Positions 32,114 to 49,413 of a DNA stretch of 64,000 nt are shown here, in pieces (within the stretch, counting starts at the first letter, position 1; each line of letters begins with the position of its first letter). The translations under genes were made by a program, and so were the position numbers. The stretch is from an uncultured Pelagibacteraceae bacterium (GTDB taxonomy: Bacteria > Pseudomonadota > Alphaproteobacteria > Pelagibacterales > Pelagibacteraceae), in the NCBI GenBank assembly GCA_902537665.1, contig CACBCE010000005.1, positions 1 to 64,000 on the forward strand, given 5' to 3'. Below the pieces are notes generated by a model, which did no database searches, was not told where the DNA came from, and saw nothing but the letters and a program-made list of their open reading frames with translations.

Positions 32114-32959
32114 TTATATAGTTTTTGCAACTTTACACCAGCAATTTTTATATTTTCTACTAAATTTTTTTTTAACATCATCGCATAATTTTTTAGATTT
32201 AAAATATGCGACAATTGCTGAACCTGATCCTGTCATTCTTACAAAACTCTTATTCGTGGATTTTTCAAGAAAATATTTGATATTTTTTAATTTAGGAAAC
32301 TTAGATAGAGAAATTGTCTCAAGAGAATTATTGAGTTTTTTCAAATTATCAAAGCTAAACATTTTTTTAGAGGGTTGGTTAAATTTGGGTTTTGTGAATT
32401 TTTTAACACTTGAATATATCTCTTTTGTCGAACACCCAAAATTAGGTTTAACAATTAGCACATAAAATTTTTTGCAGTTTTTAAACTCTTTAATCTGATT
32501 ATTAGATTTAAGAATGGTAAAAGTAGAATTAAGACCCAACGCCACATCTGAACCTATCGATTTACAAATTGAACTTAATTGCCCTTTGCTGGGATTAATA
32601 AACTTTTTCTTAATCAAATATTTTAATATATTTGCAGCATTCATTGATCCACCTCCTAATCCGGATTTTGATGGAATATGTTTGTTAACTTTTATCTCAA
32701 ACTTATGACCCATAATTAATTTTTTTTTCTCTAGAATATTTAACAACTTTGAAATTGTATTTTTTTTGTAGATATTTTTTGAATATTTTCCGTAAAATGA
32801 GATTATATGTTTTTTAGATTTAATTTTTTTAATTAGAATTACATCATATAAAGAGACAAAACCTACGATACTCTCAATCTTATGTAATTTTGAGTTTTTT
32901 CCAGTAACGTAAAGAGCTAAATTAATTTTAGCAAATGACTTTATCCTGGAATAGCTCAT
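32114..32959 (-). CDS. ispE: 4-diphosphocytidyl-2-C-methyl-D-erythritol kinase
   Basis: IspE phosphorylates CDP-methylerythritol in the MEP isoprenoid pathway. The 281-residue GHMP kinase opens with SFAKINLALYVTGKN, has the ATP loop PSKSGLGGGSMNAANIL, the GSDVALGLN region and a late RMTGSGSAIVAYF. IspH of the same pathway is encoded at about 49.4 kb. It follows the TPR gene by one base and precedes tRNA-Gln. Confidence 0.95.
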   Translation of the reverse strand: MSYSRIKSFAKINLALYVTGKNSKLHKIESIVGFVSLYDVILIKKIKSKKHIISFYGKYSKNIYKKNTISKLLNILEKKKLIMGHKFEIKVNKHIPSKSGLGGGSMNAANILKYLIKKKFINPSKGQLSSICKSIGSDVALGLNSTFTILKSNNQIKEFKNCKKFYVLIVKPNFGCSTKEIYSSVKKFTKPKFNQPSKKMFSFDNLKKLNNSLETISLSKFPKLKNIKYFLEKSTNKSFVRMTGSGSAIVAYFKSKKLCDDVKKKFSRKYKNCWCKVAKTI

Positions 32960-35975: not shown

Positions 35976-36024
35976 GAGTCTAAATAATTCAATCATAGGT
36001 TGACCCAAGAATCTTTTTGGAGTC
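35976..36024 (+). promoter_or_regulatory. Cluster of three GANTC sites upstream of ccrM
   Basis: GAGTC (35976-35980), GAATC (36009-36013) and GAGTC (36020-36024) lie in the 119-base gap between rnhB and ccrM, the last ending 17 bases before the ccrM ATG. GANTC is the recognition site of CcrM. By base composition about one site per 360 bases is expected, so three within 49 bases stand out. A self-regulatory leader like the one described for Caulobacter ccrM is a reasonable inference. Confidence 0.55.
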
Positions 36025-36041
36025 TAATTTATTTTTTCAAA

Positions 36042-37112
36042 ATGAATTTAGATTTTAAAAATAAATTAATTAACGGAGATAGCCTCCAGGAGCTTAAAAA
36101 AATTCCTGATGAGACTTTTGATTTAATTTTTGCTGACCCTCCTTACAACCTACAATTAAAAAGTGAATTAACAAGACCAGATAGATCTAAAGTAAGTGCA
36201 GTAAATGATAAATGGGATCAATTTGAAAATTTTAAAAAGTATGATGACTTTACCTATTCATGGTTAAGTGAATGTAAAAGAATTTTAAAAAAAGATGGAG
36301 CAATCTGGGTAATTGGTAGTTACCATAACATTTTTAGAGTTGGAACAACTATTCAAAATTTAGGTTTTTGGATTTTAAATGACGTCATTTGGAATAAAAA
36401 AAACCCTATGCCAAATTTTAGAGGAACGCGCTTTACAAACGCCCACGAAACTTTGATTTGGGCGTCAAAGTCTGAAAAATCTAAATACACTTTTAATTAT
36501 CAATCCTTAAAATGTTTAAATGACGATCTTCAAATGAGATCTAACTGGGAATTACCAATTTGTAATGGTTCTGAAAGACTGAAAAAGAACGGTAAAAAAG
36601 TCCATTCTACTCAAAAACCTGAGGCTCTACTTCATAGAATTTTATTAGCAACATCAAATAAAAATGATTTAGTTTTAGACCCTTTTTTAGGATCAGGAAC
36701 AACAGCAACAGTTGCAAAAAAATTGGGTAGAAATTATTATGCAATTGAAAAAGAAAAAACCTACTTTAAAGCTGCCGAACAAAGATTAAAGAAAGCAAAA
36801 CCTATAGAGGATCATTATTTAGATACTTTGCAAAATGGTAGATCTAAGCCAAGAATACCTTTTGGATCATTGGTTGAATTAGGAATAATTAAACCAGGCA
36901 CTACTATTTTTGATAATAAAAAGAAAATCAGTGCAAAAATTATGGCTGATGGCAGTATCAAACACGCTCAAACTGAAGGCTCAATCCATAAAGTAGCGGC
37001 CACAATCTTGGGTGCTGAAAGCTGTAATGGATGGACCTATTGGCATTATAACTTGAATGGAAACGCAGTTCCTATCGATAATTTAAGACAAAGATTGATT
37101 TCTAATAGTTAG
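36042..37112 (+). CDS. ccrM: Cell-cycle DNA adenine methyltransferase CcrM (GANTC)
   Basis: About 356 residues from ATG 36042. Motif IV DPPYNLQL comes before motif I DPFLGSGTTAT, the beta-class order. The C-terminal 85 residues (FGSLVELGIIKPGTTIFD ... GAESCNGWTYWHYN) form the extra domain typical of CcrM. It methylates adenine in GANTC; no cognate restriction gene is nearby, as expected for a solitary methylase. It ends head-on with the monooxygenase gene, sharing TTAG at 37109-37112. Confidence 0.95.
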   Translation: MNLDFKNKLINGDSLQELKKIPDETFDLIFADPPYNLQLKSELTRPDRSKVSAVNDKWDQFENFKKYDDFTYSWLSECKRILKKDGAIWVIGSYHNIFRVGTTIQNLGFWILNDVIWNKKNPMPNFRGTRFTNAHETLIWASKSEKSKYTFNYQSLKCLNDDLQMRSNWELPICNGSERLKKNGKKVHSTQKPEALLHRILLATSNKNDLVLDPFLGSGTTATVAKKLGRNYYAIEKEKTYFKAAEQRLKKAKPIEDHYLDTLQNGRSKPRIPFGSLVELGIIKPGTTIFDNKKKISAKIMADGSIKHAQTEGSIHKVAATILGAESCNGWTYWHYNLNGNAVPIDNLRQRLISNS

Positions 37113-38254
37113 TTTTTGTATATTTTACCAAGATAACCTTCTAAAAACTTTTTGTTTTTTACTAATCTTTTCAAAAAAATATTTCTTAATAATGTTGTTA
37201 AAGGATTAGATAAATGAAAAGCAAATTGATTAAATTTTGAGCGATTATTAACCATTTTTGTCTTATTAACTCTATTTTTAAAAAAATTACTTTCAGTATT
37301 ATTCTCAATATTCTCAAATAATTCATATGCACCTTCTATAGATTGTGATGCACCTTGGGCAAATGATGGTGAAAAAGTAAAAAAAGCATCTCCTATTAGA
37401 TGAATATTATTATTATTAAACTCAAAAAAATCATGACTCACAAATATTGGGTATATCTTTAAATCATTAATATTATCAAAAAATTCCTTAGTTAATCGTG
37501 GAACCTTTTCTAAAATCTTTTTAATAAAATTGTCATCTTTAAACATCGAGAAATCTTTTTGCTCATCCTCTGAAAGTTTATATTTCATTACAGCTATAAA
37601 GTTTAAATCTCCATCAGGAGATACTGGATAAATAACATAGTGAAAATTTGAACCTAAAAACAATGAGATGTTTTTTTTATCAGCTATGTTTGATGAGCTT
37701 GATATTATTCCTCTTATAGCTAATGTATTATCAAATTTTGGTTCAATTTGATTTTTTGATAACAGATTTTTACTCTTTGAAAAGACGCCATCTGAAACAA
37801 TTAAATAGTCAAATTCATAAGCTTGATTATTTTCAAAAGTGATTTTAACAATTTGATCTTGTTGTTCTATCTTTGAAATAGTGTGGTTAAATTTTATTTC
37901 TTTCTCTAAATCCTTTTTTAAAAAATCAATAAGTGATGATCTTTTAAGAGTAGTATATTTACAATTTTCAGTATTAAAATCTGATATATTTAACTCACAT
38001 ATCTTATTAGAATTTTTAACTGAGTAAAAATTAATTTTATCTGGATTAAATTTCTCATTATTTTCTAATGTGTCAAACTGAATTTTATTTAAAAGTTTGA
38101 CACTGTTGACAGATAATTGAATTCCGTAACCTTCTTTCAAATCGATTAAGCTATTTCTCTCAAAGATAGTTACTTGATACTTTTCATTTCTCTTAAATAA
38201 ATTTGCAATGAATAGCCCTGAAATACCAGCACCAATTACAGCTACTTTTTTCAT
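37109..38254 (-). CDS. FAD-dependent aromatic-type monooxygenase
   Basis: A 381-residue class A flavoprotein monooxygenase: Rossmann GAGISGLFIANLFKRN at the N-terminus, DYLIVSDGVFSKSK in the middle and GDAFFTFSPSFAQGASQSIEGAYEL (GD motif plus pyrophosphate contacts) at about residues 285-310. It could be a ubiquinone-ring hydroxylase (UbiH/UbiF/COQ6 kin) or a catabolic hydroxylase; sequence alone does not decide. The start shares one base with the mutY stop (TAATG). Confidence 0.85.
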   Translation of the reverse strand: MKKVAVIGAGISGLFIANLFKRNEKYQVTIFERNSLIDLKEGYGIQLSVNSVKLLNKIQFDTLENNEKFNPDKINFYSVKNSNKICELNISDFNTENCKYTTLKRSSLIDFLKKDLEKEIKFNHTISKIEQQDQIVKITFENNQAYEFDYLIVSDGVFSKSKNLLSKNQIEPKFDNTLAIRGIISSSSNIADKKNISLFLGSNFHYVIYPVSPDGDLNFIAVMKYKLSEDEQKDFSMFKDDNFIKKILEKVPRLTKEFFDNINDLKIYPIFVSHDFFEFNNNNIHLIGDAFFTFSPSFAQGASQSIEGAYELFENIENNTESNFFKNRVNKTKMVNNRSKFNQFAFHLSNPLTTLLRNIFLKRLVKNKKFLEGYLGKIYKN

Positions 38255-39234
38255 TATTTTTTTTCTAAATATTTAACAACTTTCTTAGTGAATGTTGGAA
38301 GCATATAATTATCTAATTTCCTTTTATCAAACCAATAAGATGAGGGAAATCTTTTTGCATTTTTGAGATATTCAATTTTTATGTTCATATTCATATTTGA
38401 CATTTTAAAATTAAGATTTTCATTAAAATTTTTTGGGTTAGAAAGCTCTTCCATCGGGAAAATTGTTAAATTTTTAAGAAAATTAAATCTTGTATTTTTT
38501 ACTAACAAATATTTTTGATTTTTTTTATAAACTTTAAGAATAAAATATTTTTCTTTATTCTTTTTTGTAATTTTAGCTAAATCAAAATCTTTCTTCTTAT
38601 AAGATTTGCAATTTTTTGAGATTGGACACTTACTACATTCAGGATTTTTTGGTTTGCATATCATTGCTCCTAATTCCATTAAAGCTTGAGCATAATCACT
38701 TGCTCTTGATGAAATTCCGAAAATAGATTTTTTTTCTATTAGATTGTCTTTTTGTATTTCCTTTTCTTTTCTTAAATAAAGATATCTTTTTAAAACTCTT
38801 TCAATATTTCCATCTAAAGGAATATAGGATTTATTAAAGGCAATAGCTAAAATTGCATTTGCAGTGTAATTGCCAATACCTGGTAAAGATATTAAATCCT
38901 CATAATTATTTGGAATTTCTCCATGATATTTACTAATTATGATTTTAGCAGTTTTTTTTAGATTTCTTACTCTTGAATAATATCCAAGACCTTCCCAAAG
39001 CTTTATCAATTCTCTATCGGGGATTTTTGAAAGTTTTTTAAGATTTGGAATTTTATTTATAAATCTATTAAAATAAGGAATTACAGTCACTACTTGTGTC
39101 TGCTGCAACATGAATTCACTTACCAATGTATAATAATGTTTTTTTGATTGTGAAACATTTTTTCGCCACGGTAATGTTCTCTTATTTAAATCATACCAAT
39201 TAAGAATTTTTTTTGTTATTATTTGATCTTTCAT
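38254..39234 (-). CDS. mutY: A/G-specific adenine glycosylase
   Basis: MutY removes adenine mispaired with 8-oxoguanine. From the ATG at 39234 it is 326 residues: FMLQQTQV, WEGLGYYSRVRNL with catalytic Glu, the helix-hairpin-helix LPGIGNYTANAI followed by catalytic Asp in PLDGNIERV, the 4Fe-4S cluster CKPKNPECSKCPISKNC, and a C-terminal NUDIX-like domain for 8-oxoG recognition. The alternative ATG at 39276 would overlap the divergent DUF721 gene by 42 bases. Confidence 0.95.
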   Translation of the reverse strand: MKDQIITKKILNWYDLNKRTLPWRKNVSQSKKHYYTLVSEFMLQQTQVVTVIPYFNRFINKIPNLKKLSKIPDRELIKLWEGLGYYSRVRNLKKTAKIIISKYHGEIPNNYEDLISLPGIGNYTANAILAIAFNKSYIPLDGNIERVLKRYLYLRKEKEIQKDNLIEKKSIFGISSRASDYAQALMELGAMICKPKNPECSKCPISKNCKSYKKKDFDLAKITKKNKEKYFILKVYKKNQKYLLVKNTRFNFLKNLTIFPMEELSNPKNFNENLNFKMSNMNMNIKIEYLKNAKRFPSSYWFDKRKLDNYMLPTFTKKVVKYLEKK

Positions 39235-39720
39235 ATGCAATTCAAAAAATATACTAAGCAGAGAAATAGCATTCAAGGCTTAAGATCCTTTAAAGACACT
39301 TTGCCAAAAAATATCAAAAAAGTCATCAATAAGAAAGGGCACGTGTACTCCGAAACTATCAATAATTGGAAATATATTGTTGGAGAAAATTTATTTAAAG
39401 TTTGCTACCCCAAGTCTTTTAAAAATTCTAATAAGATAGGTGTTAGCACTTTGTCGATCAATGTTAAAAGGGGGCATGAAGTTGAACTGGAATATTCAAG
39501 AAAAGATATATTGGAAAAATTAAATAATTTATTTGGTTATTCTGTTGTTGAAAAAATTAAACTAACAAGTTTTGATGACGAAAAAATTAAACCCTCTACA
39601 AATGATGAAAGCTCTTATAACGTGACAAATCATGATTATCAAAAAAAGATAAATAGTGTTAAAAATGAAAAAATAAAGAAATCTTTAATGAGGTTATCAA
39701 AGGTGTTTAAAACAAAATGA
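39235..39720 (+). CDS. DUF721 (DciA-like) protein
   Basis: About 161 residues. The family core is visible in INNWKYIVGENLFKVCYPKSFK and LSINVKRGHEVELEYSRKDILEKLNNLFGYSVVEKIKL. DUF721 proteins include DciA, the helicase-loading protein of bacteria lacking DnaC/DnaI, so a role in replication initiation is plausible but not shown for this branch. The order mutY-DUF721-dsbA-smc is typical of alphaproteobacteria. Its ATG abuts the divergent mutY ATG. It overlaps the next gene by 4 bases. Confidence 0.85.
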   Translation: MQFKKYTKQRNSIQGLRSFKDTLPKNIKKVINKKGHVYSETINNWKYIVGENLFKVCYPKSFKNSNKIGVSTLSINVKRGHEVELEYSRKDILEKLNNLFGYSVVEKIKLTSFDDEKIKPSTNDESSYNVTNHDYQKKINSVKNEKIKKSLMRLSKVFKTK

Positions 39721-40292
39721 AAAAAATATTTTTAATATTAATCTTATTTTTTGGGTCGATAAATATTTTAAATGCTGAAGGAAATAGAATCATAGCAGGA
39801 AATAAAGATGCGAAGATTACAATAATCGCTTATGAATCTTTAACATGTAGTCATTGCGCAGATTTTCATAAGAACGTATATCCTCAACTCAAAAAAGATT
39901 ATATCGATACTGGTTTAGTCAAAATTGAATTTAGGCACTTTCCTCTAGATGTGGCCGCTTTTAATGCATCAAAAATTTCTCAATGTAAAAGTAATGAAAG
40001 TTTGAAAATTTTAAATAGCCTTTATTCAAATCAACAAGCATGGGTCAGAGGGAAAAATGTGGAAGAAATTAATGATAATTTAAAAACATTTATTAAAAAT
40101 CAAGGCTTCGATTTAGATTTTGAAAAATGTATAAATGATAAAAAAATAGAGGATTATGTGTTAAACGATCGAATCGAAGGCACTAAAAAATTTAAGGTTA
40201 ATGCTACTCCTACGATTATTATTAATAACAAAAAGTTTGAGAAACCCCTTAATTATAAAAATTTAAAAAAATCGCTGGAAAAACTGATATAA
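39717..40292 (+). CDS. DsbA-family thiol-disulfide oxidoreductase, exported
   Basis: A 191-residue thioredoxin-fold protein with a signal peptide (MKKIFLILILFFGSINILNA) and the redox motif CSHC in SLTCSHCADFHKNVYPQL. The cis-Pro region is NATPTIIINNKKF. It probably oxidises or isomerises periplasmic protein cysteines. It precedes smc by 7 bases and overlaps DUF721 by 4 bases. Confidence 0.93.
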   Translation: MKKIFLILILFFGSINILNAEGNRIIAGNKDAKITIIAYESLTCSHCADFHKNVYPQLKKDYIDTGLVKIEFRHFPLDVAAFNASKISQCKSNESLKILNSLYSNQQAWVRGKNVEEINDNLKTFIKNQGFDLDFEKCINDKKIEDYVLNDRIEGTKKFKVNATPTIIINNKKFEKPLNYKNLKKSLEKLI

Positions 40293-40299
40293 ATTCTTA

Positions 40300-42696
40300 A
40301 TGGAGTTTAAAAAAATCCAATTGAACGGATTTAAATCTTTCGCTGATAAAACTAATTTCTTAATTGAAAATGGTTTGACTGGGATAGTTGGTCCTAATGG
40401 ATGTGGAAAATCAAATATTGTTGAGTCCTTAAGATGGGTCATGGGAGAAACATCAGCAAAAAGTATGCGAGGATCAGGAATGGAGGATGTAATATTTTCT
40501 GGAACATCTAACAAAGCATCCAAGAACATTGCAGAAGTGTCTGTTACTGTAACTAATGAAAAAAATGAGGGGCCAATTCAATATAGAGAATTGGATGAGG
40601 TAAACGTAAGAAGAAAAATAGAAAAAGATAAAGGCTCAAAATTTTATATAAATGATAAGGAAGTCAGAGCCCGTGATGCTCAAATGTTTTTTGCAGATCT
40701 ATCAACTGGAGCACATTCTCCATCGATGATAAGCCAAGGTCGTATAGGTGCAATCGTTACAGCTAAACCAGCCGATAGAAGGGCAATCTTAGAAGAAGCT
40801 GCAGGAATTTCAGGATTACATGTAAGAAGGCATGAAGCTGAATTACGACTAAACGCTGCAGAAAATAATCTTAAAAGAGCAGATGAATTAAGGCGTCAAC
40901 AAGAAAGGCAACTTGTTAATCTTCAAAAACAAGCTGAAGAGGCAGCAAAATATAAAAATATGTCTGAAGAAATAAAAAAGATAGAAGCAGGCTTATATTA
41001 TTTAAAATTATTAGAAATTGATAAAGAAATAAAAATAGAAAATGAGATTAATGTTGAAGCAGAGACTGAAGTAACAGACTTTAATGATAAGATCGCAGAT
41101 CTTGAAAATTTAATAAAGACTGAAACTGAAAAAGTCACACCATTAAGGGAAAAGAATATTGAAAACTTATCTAAAATACAGAGACTTAATCTTGAGCTAC
41201 AAAGTCTGGATGAAGAAAACACAAGGATACAAGATGAAATTGAAAATATAAAAAAAACACTTCAAACATTTGAGGAAGATATCGGTAGAGAAAAAGGAAT
41301 AGTAATTGATGCGAACTCAAATGAAAAAAGATTAAAAGAAGAAAAAAATGAGTTAATAGAAATTGACTCCAAATATTATGACACTGAAAAACAGTCTGAT
41401 AATGATTTGAACACCTCTAAAGATAAATTACAAAGTGAAATTGAAAAAGTTAAAGAACTTATTAATTCACAAAAAAATCAAGAAGCTATTTCAGCACTTG
41501 ATAATTGTAAGCTATTAATCGAAGCATATGCTGGGAGTTATAGTAAAAATGAAAATATAAAAAAAGAGTCTGTAAAGAGAAACGAGAGAATTAAAGTAAT
41601 TGATACAGAGATAGAAAGTTGGAAAAACCTATTATTAAATTCTGAAAAAATGGTTTTCCAGCTTACCGAAAGAAGAAGTAAATTGAATGATCAATTAAGT
41701 AAATTAGACAATCAACCAAAATTACAGGCAGAAAAAAAAGGTCAAATAACTGAAGGGTTAAGAATTTCTGAAGAAGAAAAAAAAGAAAATGAAGAAATTA
41801 TTAATTCAACAGATGAAAAAATAGAAAATTTAAGATTAAAATTGAATGAAATCCAAGAGCAATCAATTCAGATAAGAGAGAGAAAAGCAAGTTCGGGTGC
41901 AACAGTTGAGGGACTAAAAAAAAGAAAAAATGATTTAATTGATAGAATTAATTCCGAATTAAATTTATCTGAGGAAAATATTTTAGAAAATTCAAATCTT
42001 TTCGGAGTTGAGGAACTGCCTGATGCTGTAAATCAAGAGGACTTGCTAGACAAAAAAAAACAAAAAAGAGAAAAACTAGGCTCGGTGAACTTAAAAGCAG
42101 ATGAAGAAACAAATAAGTATGAAACTGAAATTAAAAAAATGGAGAGCGATCGGGTTGATTTAGTAACAGCAATAGTAAAATTAAAAGAAAGTATCAATGA
42201 GCTTAATCAAAAAGGAAGAGAAAGATTAATTGAGGCTTTTGACAAAGTTGATAGAAAATTTAACGAGGTTTACACAAAACTTTTTAATGGTGGAAGCGCC
42301 AAACTTGAATTAGTAGATGCTGATGATCCACTAGAGGCAGGACTAGAGATGTTGGTGAGTCCTCCTGGTAAGCGTCTCCAATCAATAACTTTATTATCGG
42401 GTGGAGAACAAGCACTTACTGCGCTTTCATTAATTTTTGCCGTTTTCTTAACTAATCCATCTCCAATTTGTGTATTAGATGAAGTAGATGCACCTCTTGA
42501 TGATGCGAATGTCACAAGATTTTGTAATTTGCTTGATGAACTTACAAAAATTACTGACACAAAATTTATAATTGTTACCCACCACGCTTTAACAATGTCT
42601 AAAATGAACAGACTATATGGAGTTACAATGCCCGAGAAAGGTATTAGTCAACTTGTAGCTGTTGATCTTCAAAAAGCAGAAAGTATGGTTGCCTAA
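40300..42696 (+). CDS. smc: Chromosome segregation protein SMC, short form without recognisable hinge
   Basis: The N-terminal head has FKSFADKT, Walker A GPNGCGKSN (residues 31-39), and ISQGRIGAIVTAKPADRRAI; the C-terminal head has signature LSGGEQ (699-704) and Walker B with Asp727/Glu728 in VLDEVDAP. These mark a condensin-type SMC ATPase. But it is 798 residues, against about 1150 in typical bacterial SMCs. Everything between about 180 and 640 reads as Glu/Lys coiled coil; the midpoint (about 387-420, SQKNQEAISALDNCKLLIEA) is too short for a hinge domain. There is no CxxC zinc hook either. Partner ScpA/ScpB genes are not in the window. Confidence 0.9.
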   Translation: MEFKKIQLNGFKSFADKTNFLIENGLTGIVGPNGCGKSNIVESLRWVMGETSAKSMRGSGMEDVIFSGTSNKASKNIAEVSVTVTNEKNEGPIQYRELDEVNVRRKIEKDKGSKFYINDKEVRARDAQMFFADLSTGAHSPSMISQGRIGAIVTAKPADRRAILEEAAGISGLHVRRHEAELRLNAAENNLKRADELRRQQERQLVNLQKQAEEAAKYKNMSEEIKKIEAGLYYLKLLEIDKEIKIENEINVEAETEVTDFNDKIADLENLIKTETEKVTPLREKNIENLSKIQRLNLELQSLDEENTRIQDEIENIKKTLQTFEEDIGREKGIVIDANSNEKRLKEEKNELIEIDSKYYDTEKQSDNDLNTSKDKLQSEIEKVKELINSQKNQEAISALDNCKLLIEAYAGSYSKNENIKKESVKRNERIKVIDTEIESWKNLLLNSEKMVFQLTERRSKLNDQLSKLDNQPKLQAEKKGQITEGLRISEEEKKENEEIINSTDEKIENLRLKLNEIQEQSIQIRERKASSGATVEGLKKRKNDLIDRINSELNLSEENILENSNLFGVEELPDAVNQEDLLDKKKQKREKLGSVNLKADEETNKYETEIKKMESDRVDLVTAIVKLKESINELNQKGRERLIEAFDKVDRKFNEVYTKLFNGGSAKLELVDADDPLEAGLEMLVSPPGKRLQSITLLSGGEQALTALSLIFAVFLTNPSPICVLDEVDAPLDDANVTRFCNLLDELTKITDTKFIIVTHHALTMSKMNRLYGVTMPEKGISQLVAVDLQKAESMVA

Positions 42697-45099: not shown

Positions 45100-46560
45100 A
45101 TGAATTCCATTGTTATAGGTTCAGGATTTGGAGGGATAGCTGCAGCTTTACGTCTTAAAGCTAAAGGACATAAAGTTACTTTAATCGAAAAACATCGAGA
45201 TCTTGGAGGAAGGGCTAGAGTATTTCAAAAAAATGGCTTCATTTACGATGGTGGACCAACAGTGATAACTGCTCCATATTTGATAAATGAATTGTTTGAA
45301 TTATTTCAAAAAAAACCAGAAGATTATATAAAACTTACTCCACTAAAAGTTTGGTATCAATTCATTTTCGAGGATAAATCAAAATTTAATTACTCTGGGG
45401 ACGAGCTAGAGATGAAAAAACAAATAAAAGAGATAAATGAAAAAGATGTTAAGGGTTATGAAAAATTAGTCGATTTTACAAAAAAAATTTTTGATAAAGG
45501 TTTCACGGAGCTTGCTGATGTACCTTTTGATAAACCATTTGTAATGATGCAGCAATTGCCAGCACTATTAAAACTAAAAAGTTATAAATCTGTTTATTCT
45601 TTAGTCTCCTCATATATTGAAAATGAAAAATTAAGGAGAATGCTTAGTATGCACCCATTATTAGTTGGGGGAAATCCTTTTACTACAACTTCAATTTATG
45701 GATTAATCTTATACCTAGAAAAAAAATGGGGTATTCATTACTCAATGGGTGGAACAGGAAATATAATCAAGGGTTTTGAAAAATTAATGGATGAAGTTGG
45801 GATTAAAATAATTAAAGGTCACGAAGTTACCAAAATTATTTCAAACAAAAAAAAAATTACCAGTATCCAATTAGATGATCAAACAATAATAGAGTCTAGC
45901 AATGTAATTTGTAATGCTGATCCTCCTGCTGTTTATGAGAAAATGTTAAATGGGAATACAAATAATTCATTTCTTTTTAGATGGAAAAAAAACCGAATGG
46001 AATATTCAATGGGATTATTTGTCTATTACTTTGGTACCAAAAAAAAATACGATAATGTTGAGCACCATACTATTAAGTTTGGAAACAAATATAAAGAACA
46101 TTTAGATGACATTTTCAATAACAAAAAATTGAATGACGATATTAGTTATTATCTTCACAGACCCTCTGCAACTGATAAAACTATGGCTCCCGAAGGTAAC
46201 GATTGCTTTTATGTTTTAGTCCCAGTGCCAAATAATCAATCAAAAATTGATTGGTCTGTTGAGGGAGAAAAAATGAAAAATTTGGTTATTGATAAAATGC
46301 AAAATGATTTAATGCCAGATCTCAAAAATAATATTGTAGAAGATTTTTATTTAACCCCTGATTACTTTGAAAAAGATTTAAATACAAAATATGGTTCAGG
46401 TTTTTCAATCCAACCAAAATTTTCTCAATCTGCATATTTTAGATTTCACAATAAGTCTGAGATATACAAAGGGCTTTATTTTGTTGGTGCAGGAACCCAT
46501 CCTGGAGCAGGTGTACCTGGAGTGCTTTCGTCAGCAAAGGTATTAGAAAAGATTTTATGA
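45100..46560 (+). CDS. crtI: Phytoene desaturase
   Basis: A 486-residue CrtI flavoprotein that desaturates phytoene to lycopene. The N-terminal FAD fold is IGSGFGGIAAALRLKAKGHK and LIEKHRDLGGRA; the C-terminal signature is GLYFVGAGTHPGAGVPGV. It starts a four-gene carotenoid/retinal operon and overlaps crtB by 4 bases. Confidence 0.96.
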   Translation: MNSIVIGSGFGGIAAALRLKAKGHKVTLIEKHRDLGGRARVFQKNGFIYDGGPTVITAPYLINELFELFQKKPEDYIKLTPLKVWYQFIFEDKSKFNYSGDELEMKKQIKEINEKDVKGYEKLVDFTKKIFDKGFTELADVPFDKPFVMMQQLPALLKLKSYKSVYSLVSSYIENEKLRRMLSMHPLLVGGNPFTTTSIYGLILYLEKKWGIHYSMGGTGNIIKGFEKLMDEVGIKIIKGHEVTKIISNKKKITSIQLDDQTIIESSNVICNADPPAVYEKMLNGNTNNSFLFRWKKNRMEYSMGLFVYYFGTKKKYDNVEHHTIKFGNKYKEHLDDIFNNKKLNDDISYYLHRPSATDKTMAPEGNDCFYVLVPVPNNQSKIDWSVEGEKMKNLVIDKMQNDLMPDLKNNIVEDFYLTPDYFEKDLNTKYGSGFSIQPKFSQSAYFRFHNKSEIYKGLYFVGAGTHPGAGVPGVLSSAKVLEKIL

Positions 46561-47411
46561 TGTCTGATAAAAATTACTTATCAGTTTATGCAAAATCTTT
46601 TAATTGGGCGGGTTTTTTTTTACCTAAAAAAATATATAAAAAATGCTCTGCGTTGTATGATTTTTGTAGAGTTGCCGACAATATCGCAGACGATGAAGAA
46701 AAATTAGAAGTCAAAGAAATTAAATTTAAGCAATTTAAAAAAGATTTTGTTCAAAAGAATTTTGATAATCAAATTGTTAAAAATATGTGGGACCTTATTG
46801 ATGAATTTAAAATTTCAGTAAAAATTATCGAAGATCTATTAGATGGTATAAATTCAGATATAAAAGATAAGGTAATATTAAATTCAAAAAAAGACCTTTT
46901 AATATATTCTTACAGAGTTGCTGGAACTGTTGGTTTAATGATGGCAAAAATTTTAAAAGTTAATAAAAAAAGCTCACTTAAGTCAGCTATTGATCTCGGT
47001 ATCGCAATGCAACTTACAAATATATCAAGAGATGTAATTGAAGATTCAAAAATAAATAGATTTTATATAAATAAAAATTTTGAGGAAATCACATCGACTA
47101 TAGATCTTGCAGATACCTTTTATAAGAATTCCTTTTATTCTATAAAAGACATCCCAATAAGTTTTAGATTTTCAATTTTAGTCGCAAGAAGGATCTACCG
47201 AAAAATAGGCTATAATATTCTAAATAAAAAAACGTTTGAAAATTATAAAAATTCTGGAAAAATTTATGTATCCAATATTGAAAAGAGTATAGAGACTATT
47301 TTTGCGATTTTTGATCTTATAAGATTATCTCTAACTAGCATTAAGGAAGATCAGATTCAACATGATCATTTTTTAATTAATGAGGAAATAAATCTAGATG
47401 AAAGAATTTGA
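46557..47411 (+). CDS. crtB: Phytoene synthase
   Basis: A 284-residue prenyl-condensing enzyme that joins two geranylgeranyl diphosphates to phytoene. The two aspartate-rich motifs are in YDFCRVADNIADDEE and QLTNISRDVIED. The start ATG at 46557 overlaps the crtI stop; a second ATG at 46560 is possible. It overlaps crtY by 14 bases. No GGPP synthase gene is in the window, so its substrate comes from a distant gene. Confidence 0.95.
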   Translation: MMSDKNYLSVYAKSFNWAGFFLPKKIYKKCSALYDFCRVADNIADDEEKLEVKEIKFKQFKKDFVQKNFDNQIVKNMWDLIDEFKISVKIIEDLLDGINSDIKDKVILNSKKDLLIYSYRVAGTVGLMMAKILKVNKKSSLKSAIDLGIAMQLTNISRDVIEDSKINRFYINKNFEEITSTIDLADTFYKNSFYSIKDIPISFRFSILVARRIYRKIGYNILNKKTFENYKNSGKIYVSNIEKSIETIFAIFDLIRLSLTSIKEDQIQHDHFLINEEINLDERI

Positions 47412-48465
47412 CTATGTCATTATTGGTGGGGGCTGTGCTGGTTTATCTTTAGCGTATGAATTGGAAATTCATGAAAAGCTTAAAGATAAAACTTTGGCAA
47501 TCATAGAACCAAGAGATGAATACAAAAGAGACAAAACTTGGTCTTTTTGGAAAGTAACATCTCACAATTTTGATGATTGTGTAAAAAAAAATTGGAAAAA
47601 TTTTTCAATTAATATTCCTAAAAAAACTAACTATTTGCAGTGTAAAAGTTCTCCATATCAAAGTATTGACAGTGGTTTATTCTATGAAAAAATTAACAAC
47701 AAACTAAATGAAAATAAAAATATTTCCTACTTTAAAGATGTAAGTGAAATTAGTTTAAAAAATTCTTTTATTTTTAATAGCGTACCATTCATTAAAAAAG
47801 ATTATCGAAATCTTTGGCAACATTTTTGTGGAGTGGAAATCGAAACTAAAAATAATTTTTTTGATGATGAAATTTTTAACCTTATGGATTTTGATTGTGA
47901 TCAAAGAGAAAGTGTTCATTTTTTTTATACCTTACCCTACTCAAAAAATACTGCTTTAGTCGAAACCACTTGGTTGTCTAAAATTAATGACAATTCTCAA
48001 AAAGATTATGACAAACAGATAAAAGATTACATTGAAAATCATCTAAATTTGAAAGATTACAAGATAATTTATAAAGAGGAAGGGGCGATACCTTTATTTT
48101 ACCCAATCGATAAGAATGAAAAAAATAAGATAAATATTGGAACTGCTGGTGGTATGACTAGATTAAGTACAGGTTATACTTTTCTAAATATTCAAGAACA
48201 TAGTAAATATATTAGAGAAAATATTGAAAATATTGCTAATGTTAAAAAATATAAAATAAGCACTAAATATCAGTTTTTAGATGAAATATTTTTAAGAGTT
48301 CTTGAAAAACATCCAGAAAAAATGTCTGATATATTCTTTAAAATGTTTAAGGCTTCACCAAAGACTGTTATAAAATTTTTGTCCAATAAAAGTAATTTTT
48401 TCGAGGATTTGTCTATTATTTTAAGAATGCCTAAATTGACTTTTATAAAAGCATTATTTTATTAG
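47398..48465 (+). CDS. crtY: Lycopene beta-cyclase, CrtY type
   Basis: A 355-residue flavoprotein that cyclises lycopene ends to beta-carotene. It has the dinucleotide motif IGGGCAGLSLAYEL, IIEPRDEYKRDKTWSFW typical of CrtY, a middle ALVETTWLS and GTAGGMTRLSTGYTF. Position between crtB and blh supports this. Confidence 0.94.
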   Translation: MKEFDYVIIGGGCAGLSLAYELEIHEKLKDKTLAIIEPRDEYKRDKTWSFWKVTSHNFDDCVKKNWKNFSINIPKKTNYLQCKSSPYQSIDSGLFYEKINNKLNENKNISYFKDVSEISLKNSFIFNSVPFIKKDYRNLWQHFCGVEIETKNNFFDDEIFNLMDFDCDQRESVHFFYTLPYSKNTALVETTWLSKINDNSQKDYDKQIKDYIENHLNLKDYKIIYKEEGAIPLFYPIDKNEKNKINIGTAGGMTRLSTGYTFLNIQEHSKYIRENIENIANVKKYKISTKYQFLDEIFLRVLEKHPEKMSDIFFKMFKASPKTVIKFLSNKSNFFEDLSIILRMPKLTFIKALFY

Positions 48466-48477
48466 TAGAATTTTAAA

Positions 48478-49413
48478 ATGAATAACAGATCAAAAAAAAT
48501 AAATTTTAATCATTCTTTCATTTTTTTTTTAGTTTGTAATATTTTTTCATTGATAGCTTTTAATTTTAACACTTTTTCAATTTCACCATTTATTTGTTTG
48601 TTATTAATTTTAAGTATCGGTATATCTCATGGATCACTTGACGATGTAAAAGGAAGAAAACTTTTTCAAATTTTTGAAATTAAAAAATTTTATATTTTTT
48701 ACTTGGCATATATTTTAATAGCTATCATAGTTATAATTTTGTGGATACTCGTACCACATGTTTCTTTAATCATTTTTTTAACGGTTGCCTCATATCATTT
48801 TGGAAAAGAAGATACTCAGTTTTTAATAGTTGAAAACTCTTATTACAATCAATTTTTATTTTTGTTAAAAGGTTCTTTGATAGTTTTTGCACCAATGTAT
48901 TTCCATTTCAATGAGACAATATCAATATTCAAATTACTATTTATTGAAAATGAAAATTTCTATAATTTTTTAGATTTAATAGAGTCTAAAAAGATATTGT
49001 TATATTGTATTATTCTATCAACATTAGCAAACATTCTACTATTTACAAAAAATTTTGAGCTAAAGAAATTCACAATATTTTTTGATTATTTTTCAATTAT
49101 AATAATAAATTATTATTTTTCTCCATTTGTAGCTTTTACAATTTATTTTTGCTTTTTACACTCTGTAAGACATAGTATCTCATTAATGTCTGAATTAGAC
49201 AGGGATGACCTTGGTAATGGATTTAAAATCTTTGTAAAAAAGGCTTTACCACTAACAATTATTACAGCTATTTTTTGTGCAATTGGCCTTTATTTACTAA
49301 ATAATACTTACAATTTAGAAAGTTCAATTCTTAAAATTATATTTATAGGTTTGGCGTCTTTGACCTTTCCACATATATTGCTTGAGTATTTGATTGAAAA
49401 AAATGAAAAATAA
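48478..49413 (+). CDS. blh: Brp/Blh-type beta-carotene 15,15'-dioxygenase
   Basis: A 311-residue membrane protein with about seven or eight helices and the conserved metal-binding histidines in GISHGSLDD, ASYHFGKED and LHSVRHS. Blh cleaves beta-carotene to two retinals, the chromophore of proteorhodopsin. With crtI, crtB and crtY upstream it completes retinal synthesis from GGPP. Its 3' end overlaps ispH by 11 bases. Confidence 0.94.
   Translation: MNNRSKKINFNHSFIFFLVCNIFSLIAFNFNTFSISPFICLLLILSIGISHGSLDDVKGRKLFQIFEIKKFYIFYLAYILIAIIVIILWILVPHVSLIIFLTVASYHFGKEDTQFLIVENSYYNQFLFLLKGSLIVFAPMYFHFNETISIFKLLFIENENFYNFLDLIESKKILLYCIILSTLANILLFTKNFELKKFTIFFDYFSIIIINYYFSPFVAFTIYFCFLHSVRHSISLMSELDRDDLGNGFKIFVKKALPLTIITAIFCAIGLYLLNNTYNLESSILKIIFIGLASLTFPHILLEYLIEKNEK

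Follow-up and report, generated by a model that had tools for sequence, protein, structure and literature searches.

The hinge counts as a defining feature of SMC proteins, and the DNA-entrapment picture as well as several loop-extrusion models rest on it. Hinge-mediated dimerisation is reportedly essential for the dynamic interaction of Smc with DNA, a result ascribed to Hirano and Hirano in 2002. In the sections of Liu (2025; PMC12647877) drawn on here, DNA extrusion by an SMC complex is the work of its core, and the periphery, from elbow to hinge, lets obstacles through. A Wadjet core in which the periphery was replaced by 9 residues and the chains were paired by a disulfide at the elbow still cleaved plasmid, which was the readout of loop extrusion; obstacle bypass by this core was impossible, and its activity was gone once the disulfide was reduced (same sections). 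A Rad50 zinc hook can take the place of the hinge in B. subtilis Smc, according to the relevant part of Burmann (2017; PMC5344682), and in the rod model of this protein, as outlined in passages of PMC5526789, the two arms are in contact at seven positions. 'Hinge-less' SMCs have been reported before, as an oceanic sequence cluster assigned to Actinomycetes (Sussfeld 2025; PMC12153180, relevant sections). The terms Pelagibacter, SAR11 and Alphaproteobacteria, in these spellings, have 0 occurrences in the main text of that paper.

The DNA analysed in this study was a 64,000-nucleotide stretch (the window) from an uncultured Pelagibacteraceae bacterium. The SAR11 order, to which it belongs, is among the most abundant bacteria. 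On the forward strand of the window, the ORF at 40300-42696 starts with ATG and encodes an SMC protein of 798 residues without a hinge, as judged from the reading frame, TIGR02168, a hinge profile, an AlphaFold2 model and dN/dS. With the bacterial Smc of SMC-ScpAB (TIGR02168; B. subtilis, Caulobacter) it shares the heads, the signature and Walker motifs, antiparallel arms, a locus near a DsbA-like gene and the partners ScpA and ScpB; it differs in having no hinge and in arms that are each about 100 residues shorter (mean 230 versus about 331). The engineered Wadjet ecJET(core) is alike in that its elbow-to-hinge part was cut to a few residues with the heads and head-proximal arms kept, whereas the SAR11 SMC is natural, belongs to Smc-ScpAB and not to JetABCD, has no known covalent elbow link, and is active by prediction only (compared with the construct as set out in sections of PMC12647877). 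The cluster of oceanic Actinomycetes also combines a head and an antiparallel coil with neither hinge nor CXXC, but it comes from another phylum and consists of metagenomic ORFs of unsettled lineage, with ScpAB unnamed in the sections used of PMC12153180; this comparison was by description, not by sequence. Rad50/SbcC and the archaeal ASRP (ClsN/Sph) are likewise ABC heads on a coiled-coil hairpin without an SMC hinge, but these proteins pair via a CxxC zinc hook (passages of PMC9389158 and PMC12153180), which the SAR11 SMC does not have.

The assignment of the ORF to smc was clear. TIGR02168 (SMC_prok_B) matched it in two stretches with 666.8 bits, against a curated cut-off of 567.35, and the SMC score of 667 bits was far above those for ASRP (65 bits) and Rad50 (40.6 bits). 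The protein has a split ABC head, with Walker A in the N half and the signature and Walker B in the C half, and the head halves proved complete, with each motif at the residues given for it in the original prediction. All features of the gene lie on the forward strand. From the model and the alignment, the N-terminal half of the head occupies 40300-40815 (residues 1-172) and the C-terminal half 42136-42693 (residues 613-798). The alignment placed Walker A at 40390-40416 (residues 31-39), the ABC signature LSGGEQ at 42394-42411 (residues 699-704), and the stretch from Walker B to the catalytic D727/E728 at 42466-42483 (residues 723-728). In an alignment of 34 hinge-less rows, the columns of the ATPase motifs were almost all invariant. 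Cysteines are found only at residues 35, 403, 724 and 742, which agrees with the predicted absence of a CxxC zinc hook; a zinc hook was also ruled out in the relatives, as CxxC was absent in 92 distinct SMCs of 798 residues and in 9 distinct SMCs of 857 residues. The genome of the window (1.04 Mb in 26 contigs, 81% complete) gave no other match to this smc.

The genes around smc are those expected for this locus. A DsbA-like gene (39717-40292, forward strand) lies directly upstream, preceded by dciA (PF05258; 39223-39720, forward strand), which we take to be the DUF721 gene of the original prediction, and by a mutY-like gene (HhH-GPD; 38254-39276, reverse strand); an atpI-like gene (PF09527; 42712-42984, forward strand) follows downstream. 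A DsbA-like homologue was present in the flanks of 1-1.5 kb around smc in 34 of 36 alphaproteobacterial loci (28/30 full-length and 6/6 short), and the 798-residue gene is thus the orthologous smc. Together with the TIGR02168 score above the cut-off, this bears out the view that the locus is the true smc, reshaped, and the ORF was confirmed as a true smc with intact heads and no hinge. The partner genes had been named as something to look for. In the window's genome, scpA and scpB adjoin (G000:C10:31677-32327 and 32408-32869), and across the order ScpA was matched in 125 and ScpB in 126 of the 147 genomes (none in 22 and 21, respectively). As the two genes are present, adjacent and common in the order, the SMC-ScpAB set has been retained in most of its genomes.

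The Pfam family SMC_hinge (PF06470) gave no match in the 798-residue protein. This family is a weak detector in the class, where it matched in 74 of 240 genomes, and in the Caulobacter control it missed a protein that TIGR02168 matched; a class-specific profile was therefore built. This alpha hinge profile was made of hinges cut from 30 full-length alphaproteobacterial SMCs and was used with the HMMER filters off. It detected 15 of 15 control loci, which had been chosen by PF06470 and shared some of their genomes with the training rows, and five of five rows outside the training set (1104, 987, 963, 882 and 869 residues; E 1e-61 to 1e-24). The SMCs of 869 and 882 residues, from other families, keep the hinge (E 1e-24 and 5e-32, respectively), so short length is not the cause of the missing signal. 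On 53 rows from the order (46 distinct), the top score of the alpha hinge profile was 0.4 bits, and on two rows of a second lineage, f25, it gave nothing reportable. The class-specific profile thus found no hinge at the midpoint, as had been proposed, and the possibility of a hinge merely too diverged for Pfam was ruled out. The turn of the coil, at residues 390-392 (SQK), falls within the short midpoint stretch singled out in the original prediction. When two result tables were compared by eye, 11 genomes of the class had a strong smc and no hinge match: G000, G001 and G003 of the order, G169 and G300 of f25, and G162, G190, G282, G332, G368 and G372, these last six having only smc pieces of 274-506 codons, which are uninformative on the hinge either way. 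The remaining TIGR02168 matches in the class were weak, many with E 1e-4 to 1e-13, and may belong to genes other than smc.

A hinge might be supplied in trans by a separate protein, which could have an unrelated fold and could be missed in the window's genome, given its completeness of only 81%. This is highly improbable, as no separate gene of the hinge family (PF06470 or the alpha profile) was found in the 147 genomes of the order, 105 of which are at least 90% complete. The whole-genome search was carried out with profile A1 (the alpha hinge profile plus four short hinges), which matched in 0 of these 147 genomes and in 151 of the 240 genomes of the class with the same query.

The hinge loss is order-wide in Pelagibacterales. 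A match to smc was obtained in 136 of 147 Pelagibacterales genomes and none in 11, and the smc frames listed for the order measured 799-891 codons, apart from one of 533 codons (G099). In G108, one TAG was observed within the smc match. Among 459 relatives, 80 loci came from records named as Pelagibacteraceae or Pelagibacterales; 79 of these matched over residues 1-798, and the remaining locus, which sits at the end of a contig, over 1-756. The deletion of about 1 kb by the assembly, or a pseudogene, could give a protein of this kind in one genome, but the chance of either is negligible: the same architecture occurs in many independent genomes, including single-contig and SAG-MED records, which excludes an assembly deletion, and a dN/dS of 0.043 together with the recurrence of the architecture rules out a pseudogene. 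The smc is under purifying selection, with dN/dS values of 0.02 in the heads, 0.04-0.06 in the arms and 0.12 at the tip; these were calculated for 150 of 209 eligible pairs from 106 sequences of 798 residues, identical proteins included, so that the pairs share sequences and are non-independent, and 2-3 undefined pairs were dropped in some regions.

In a tree of the head halves from the alphaproteobacterial set, all 22 Pelagibacterales rows fell on one side of a branch with support of 100/100, which suggests that the loss dates back at least to the origin of the order. The SMC of the window grouped with the other Pelagibacterales rows in the tree of the all-alphaproteobacterial set. Six genomes were available from the order of f25, five of which had smc frames of 806-820 codons. 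For f25 and Pelagibacterales, the best tree required two changes, and the hinge-less rows formed one group in 14% of the bootstrap trees; the branch leading to f25 is very long.

The structure was predicted for the monomer, and the fold is predicted to be a plain coiled-coil hairpin. The AlphaFold2 model of the 798-residue SMC (34 rows; mean pLDDT 78, pTM 0.47) consists of the head and one hairpin, with no hinge: a helix at residues 251-389, the turn at 390-392 and helices at 393-470 and 472-553. The block means of pLDDT in the tip region were 80-91, and 80-85 around the turn. In this model, the N-terminal arm helix, delimited by DSSP, covers 40816-41466 (residues 173-389) with a break near 241-250, the turn at the tip that replaces the hinge lies at 41467-41475, and the C-terminal arm extends over 41476-42135 (residues 393-612), with lower confidence at 521-600. 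In the model of an 857-residue relative (22 rows, mean pLDDT 77) the hairpin recurs; counted along the modelled chain, whose first residue is residue 2, it turns at 418-420 and is slightly broken at 444-445. A mini-hinge in the forms with a longer tip was rejected as a candidate, since this one 857-residue model has just a turn and a small kink. A Foldseek search of the 798-residue model against the PDB gave the expected proteins (Smc heads, condensin, cohesin, Smc5/6, MukB and Rad50) and was uninformative for the tip.

A deficit of about 350 residues had been noted. The size of the deficit was correct, but the hinge explains only part of it, as the missing 353 residues correspond to one hinge (about 152 residues) and about 100 residues from each arm. 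In full-length alphaproteobacterial SMCs, the arms measured 314-324 (mean 316) and 344-345 residues and the hinge about 152, for the 22 of 30 proteins that were measurable; the landmarks used missed 8/30 full-length SMCs, 6/22 representatives of the order and L218. With the same landmarks, and the turn taken from the model, the arms of the 798-residue SMC are 215 and 245 residues long. The arms are present as an antiparallel coiled coil, shortened, according to the AlphaFold2 model. The superhelical period of Smc arms is about 99 residues, with natural modes at 238 and 341, as described in part of Burmann (PMC5344682). The match between this period and the loss of about 100 residues per arm is suggestive only, because the head-to-head span differs elsewhere in the order (473-545 residues, versus 460 in the 798-residue SMC).

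As no hinge is left, dimerisation is predicted to work differently in this protein. The reading that we favour, with a probability of roughly 0.55, is that this is the smc of an SMC-ScpAB condensin that has lost its periphery and kept its motor core, with the chains paired by their arms, i.e. a natural core-only SMC-ScpAB. The lost periphery would comprise the hinge and the outer 100 or so residues of each arm, and what is left would be two ATPase heads on hairpins of about 215-245 residues that end in a simple turn. At the heads, the two Smc chains would be joined by ScpA(B) and by ATP-driven engagement, and along the arms by a side-by-side contact, most likely through sub-tip regions at residues 327-349 and 419-448. 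A second arm-to-arm contact nearer the head may have been retained and help in the joining. In work on disrupting binders of B. subtilis Smc, these flank an arm-to-arm contact at about 290-320, with none mapped further away in the passages used (PMC13186564). This region is kept in the 798-residue SMC, to judge by the TIGR02168 alignment of the N part, which is near-linear (3-396 to 2-396). This closure of the ring would suffice for segment capture and DNA translocation, and the functions given up would be stable dimerisation by the hinge, DNA binding by the hinge and the passage of obstacles through a hinge gate. Counting against the core-only reading, the core of Liu requires a covalent link at the elbow, and none is known in the SAR11 SMC. 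The reported need for dimerisation by the hinge, the differences in tip length between close relatives and the genomes of the order with no match to smc, ScpA or ScpB also speak against it.

The candidate contact surface was identified from conservation. The N side of the sub-tip patch (41278-41346, residues 327-349) and its C side (41554-41643, residues 419-448, about opposite 334-363 by symmetry about the turn) are set some 27-63 residues back from the turn, approximately opposite one another, and in 14-residue windows both stretches ranked with the more conserved portions of the arms. Residues 309-360 and 419-488 were more conserved than in full-length SMCs, most so at 419-446 and 337-350 (0.86 versus 1.77 bits at 419-432, and 1.16 versus 1.64 bits at 337-350); the short and full-length sets differ in divergence, and residues 419-428 are gapped in some rows, which lowers their entropy. 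The windows 267-280, 489-516 and 545-586 were less conserved than in full-length SMCs. However, the windows 285-298 and 523-536 were about as conserved as the sub-tip patch, and the gain of 601-614 over full-length SMCs was equal to that of 433-446. The conservation of the sub-tip patch might indicate that the two arms touch each other there, although the patch could also serve another partner, which counts against arm-pairing.

Arm-pairing may be compared with a joining of the chains that is only transient. In that case there would be no permanent dimer; ATP acting at the heads, together with ScpAB, would bring the monomers together, and only the heads-kleisin compartment would close, as in head-only ABC ATPases. 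Such an arrangement would suit a small genome and a protein with no known dimerisation domain left and with heads and kleisin partners intact. It was considered rather improbable, as arms of about 230 residues have been kept under purifying selection at the dN/dS of 0.04-0.06 given above, and as the Wadjet core was inactive once opened (sections of PMC12647877).

The coil tips themselves might also form a new dimer interface, by a tip-to-tip four-helix bundle, perhaps aided by cysteine, so that the ring would be closed at the top by a tiny improvised hinge. The tip is under purifying selection (dN/dS 0.12), and an unrelated dimerisation domain can stand in for the hinge of B. subtilis in the part of PMC5344682 concerned. 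A cysteine was present within residues 375-415 in 58 of 92 distinct 798-residue SMCs, 54 of which have it at the position of Cys403 (41506-41508), and at residue 432, the counterpart of Cys403, in 9/9 distinct SMCs of 857 residues. However, conservation within the protein is lowest at the tip, and the tip cysteine is absent in 34/92 distinct 798-residue forms and in 11/12 representatives of the other genera of the order, which also ruled it out as a universal hook. The length of the tip differs even between close relatives, with 2-3 alterations inside the genus: to explain the switch between 798 and 857 residues, the best tree needs three changes, and its well-supported branches call for at least two. 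A tip interface was for these reasons judged unlikely, if less so than a transient joining, and pairing through the sub-tip arms remains the preferred reading.

Hinge-less SMCs as a kind are already known, and their natural occurrence throughout an order, together with ScpAB, is new as far as the literature search reached: among the matches listed for the open-licence literature, searched by titles and the starts of abstracts, there was no report of a hinge-less SMC in SAR11. Surveys that start from the hinge would miss such proteins. The arm-length survey of Burmann, as described in part of PMC5344682, was seeded with hinge alignments and would not have picked up the SAR11 SMC. A whole lineage lives without the hinge and keeps ScpAB, and this offers a natural system for asking whether the hinge is needed for extrusion or just for obstacle bypass, as well as a ready-made short SMC for structural work. 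We tentatively propose, at somewhat less than even odds, that the SAR11 chromosome is run by a natural core-only SMC-ScpAB that moves DNA without a hinge in a ring closed via a new sub-tip arm contact, and that the hinge was lost more than once in small-genome marine bacteria able to forgo obstacle bypass. The two short-armed alphaproteobacterial SMCs mentioned above (L215/G176 and L214/G306) resemble the SAR11 protein in total length (869 and 882 residues), but they have kept the hinge and their arms have been cut more, to 175-184 and 197-199 residues.

The length of the SMC tip has switched two to three times inside one genus, between forms of exactly 798 amino acids (the window SMC and the loci L021-L026) and forms of 857 amino acids (L156-L164). 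The tip motifs were alike in both forms, and it is possible that the switching was caused by recombination of the tip segment. The tip cysteine, Cys403, encoded within smc at window positions 41506-41508, was present in 54 of the 92 distinct 798-aa SMCs, and all 9 of the distinct 857-aa SMCs carried a cysteine at the matching position. For other genera, just one of 12 representatives had a tip cysteine.

Short SMCs were also observed outside the Pelagibacterales in a second lineage, f25, for which sampling was poor (six genomes, with sizes of 0.6-1.1 Mb). The smc frames were 806-820 codons long in five of these genomes (L212 and L213, from genomes G169 and G300, and L223-L225). The profile built from the hinges of full-length alphaproteobacterial SMCs detected no hinge in either of the two f25 SMCs searched, and the hinge loss in this lineage was possibly an independent event.

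In L214 (genome G306; 882 aa) and L215 (genome G176; 869 aa), the short length is reached in another way. These proteins are as short overall as the hinge-less SMCs, but the hinge, detected with the same profile, is kept and the arms are shortened to 175-199 residues. The arms of the full-length alphaproteobacterial SMCs (L046-L075) were near-constant in length, with a C-terminal arm of 344-345 residues in all 22 proteins measured from this set of 30.

A few genes away from smc, the window harbours a CcrM-like adenine methyltransferase gene (36000-37112), which scored 575 bits against the Caulobacter CcrM model, under the model cut-off of 830. Carotenoid and retinal genes (45100-49413; CrtI-family, phytoene synthase-like, lycopene cyclase-like and Blh) lie directly downstream of candidate genes which, judged by eye, would encode the ATP synthase a and b subunits.
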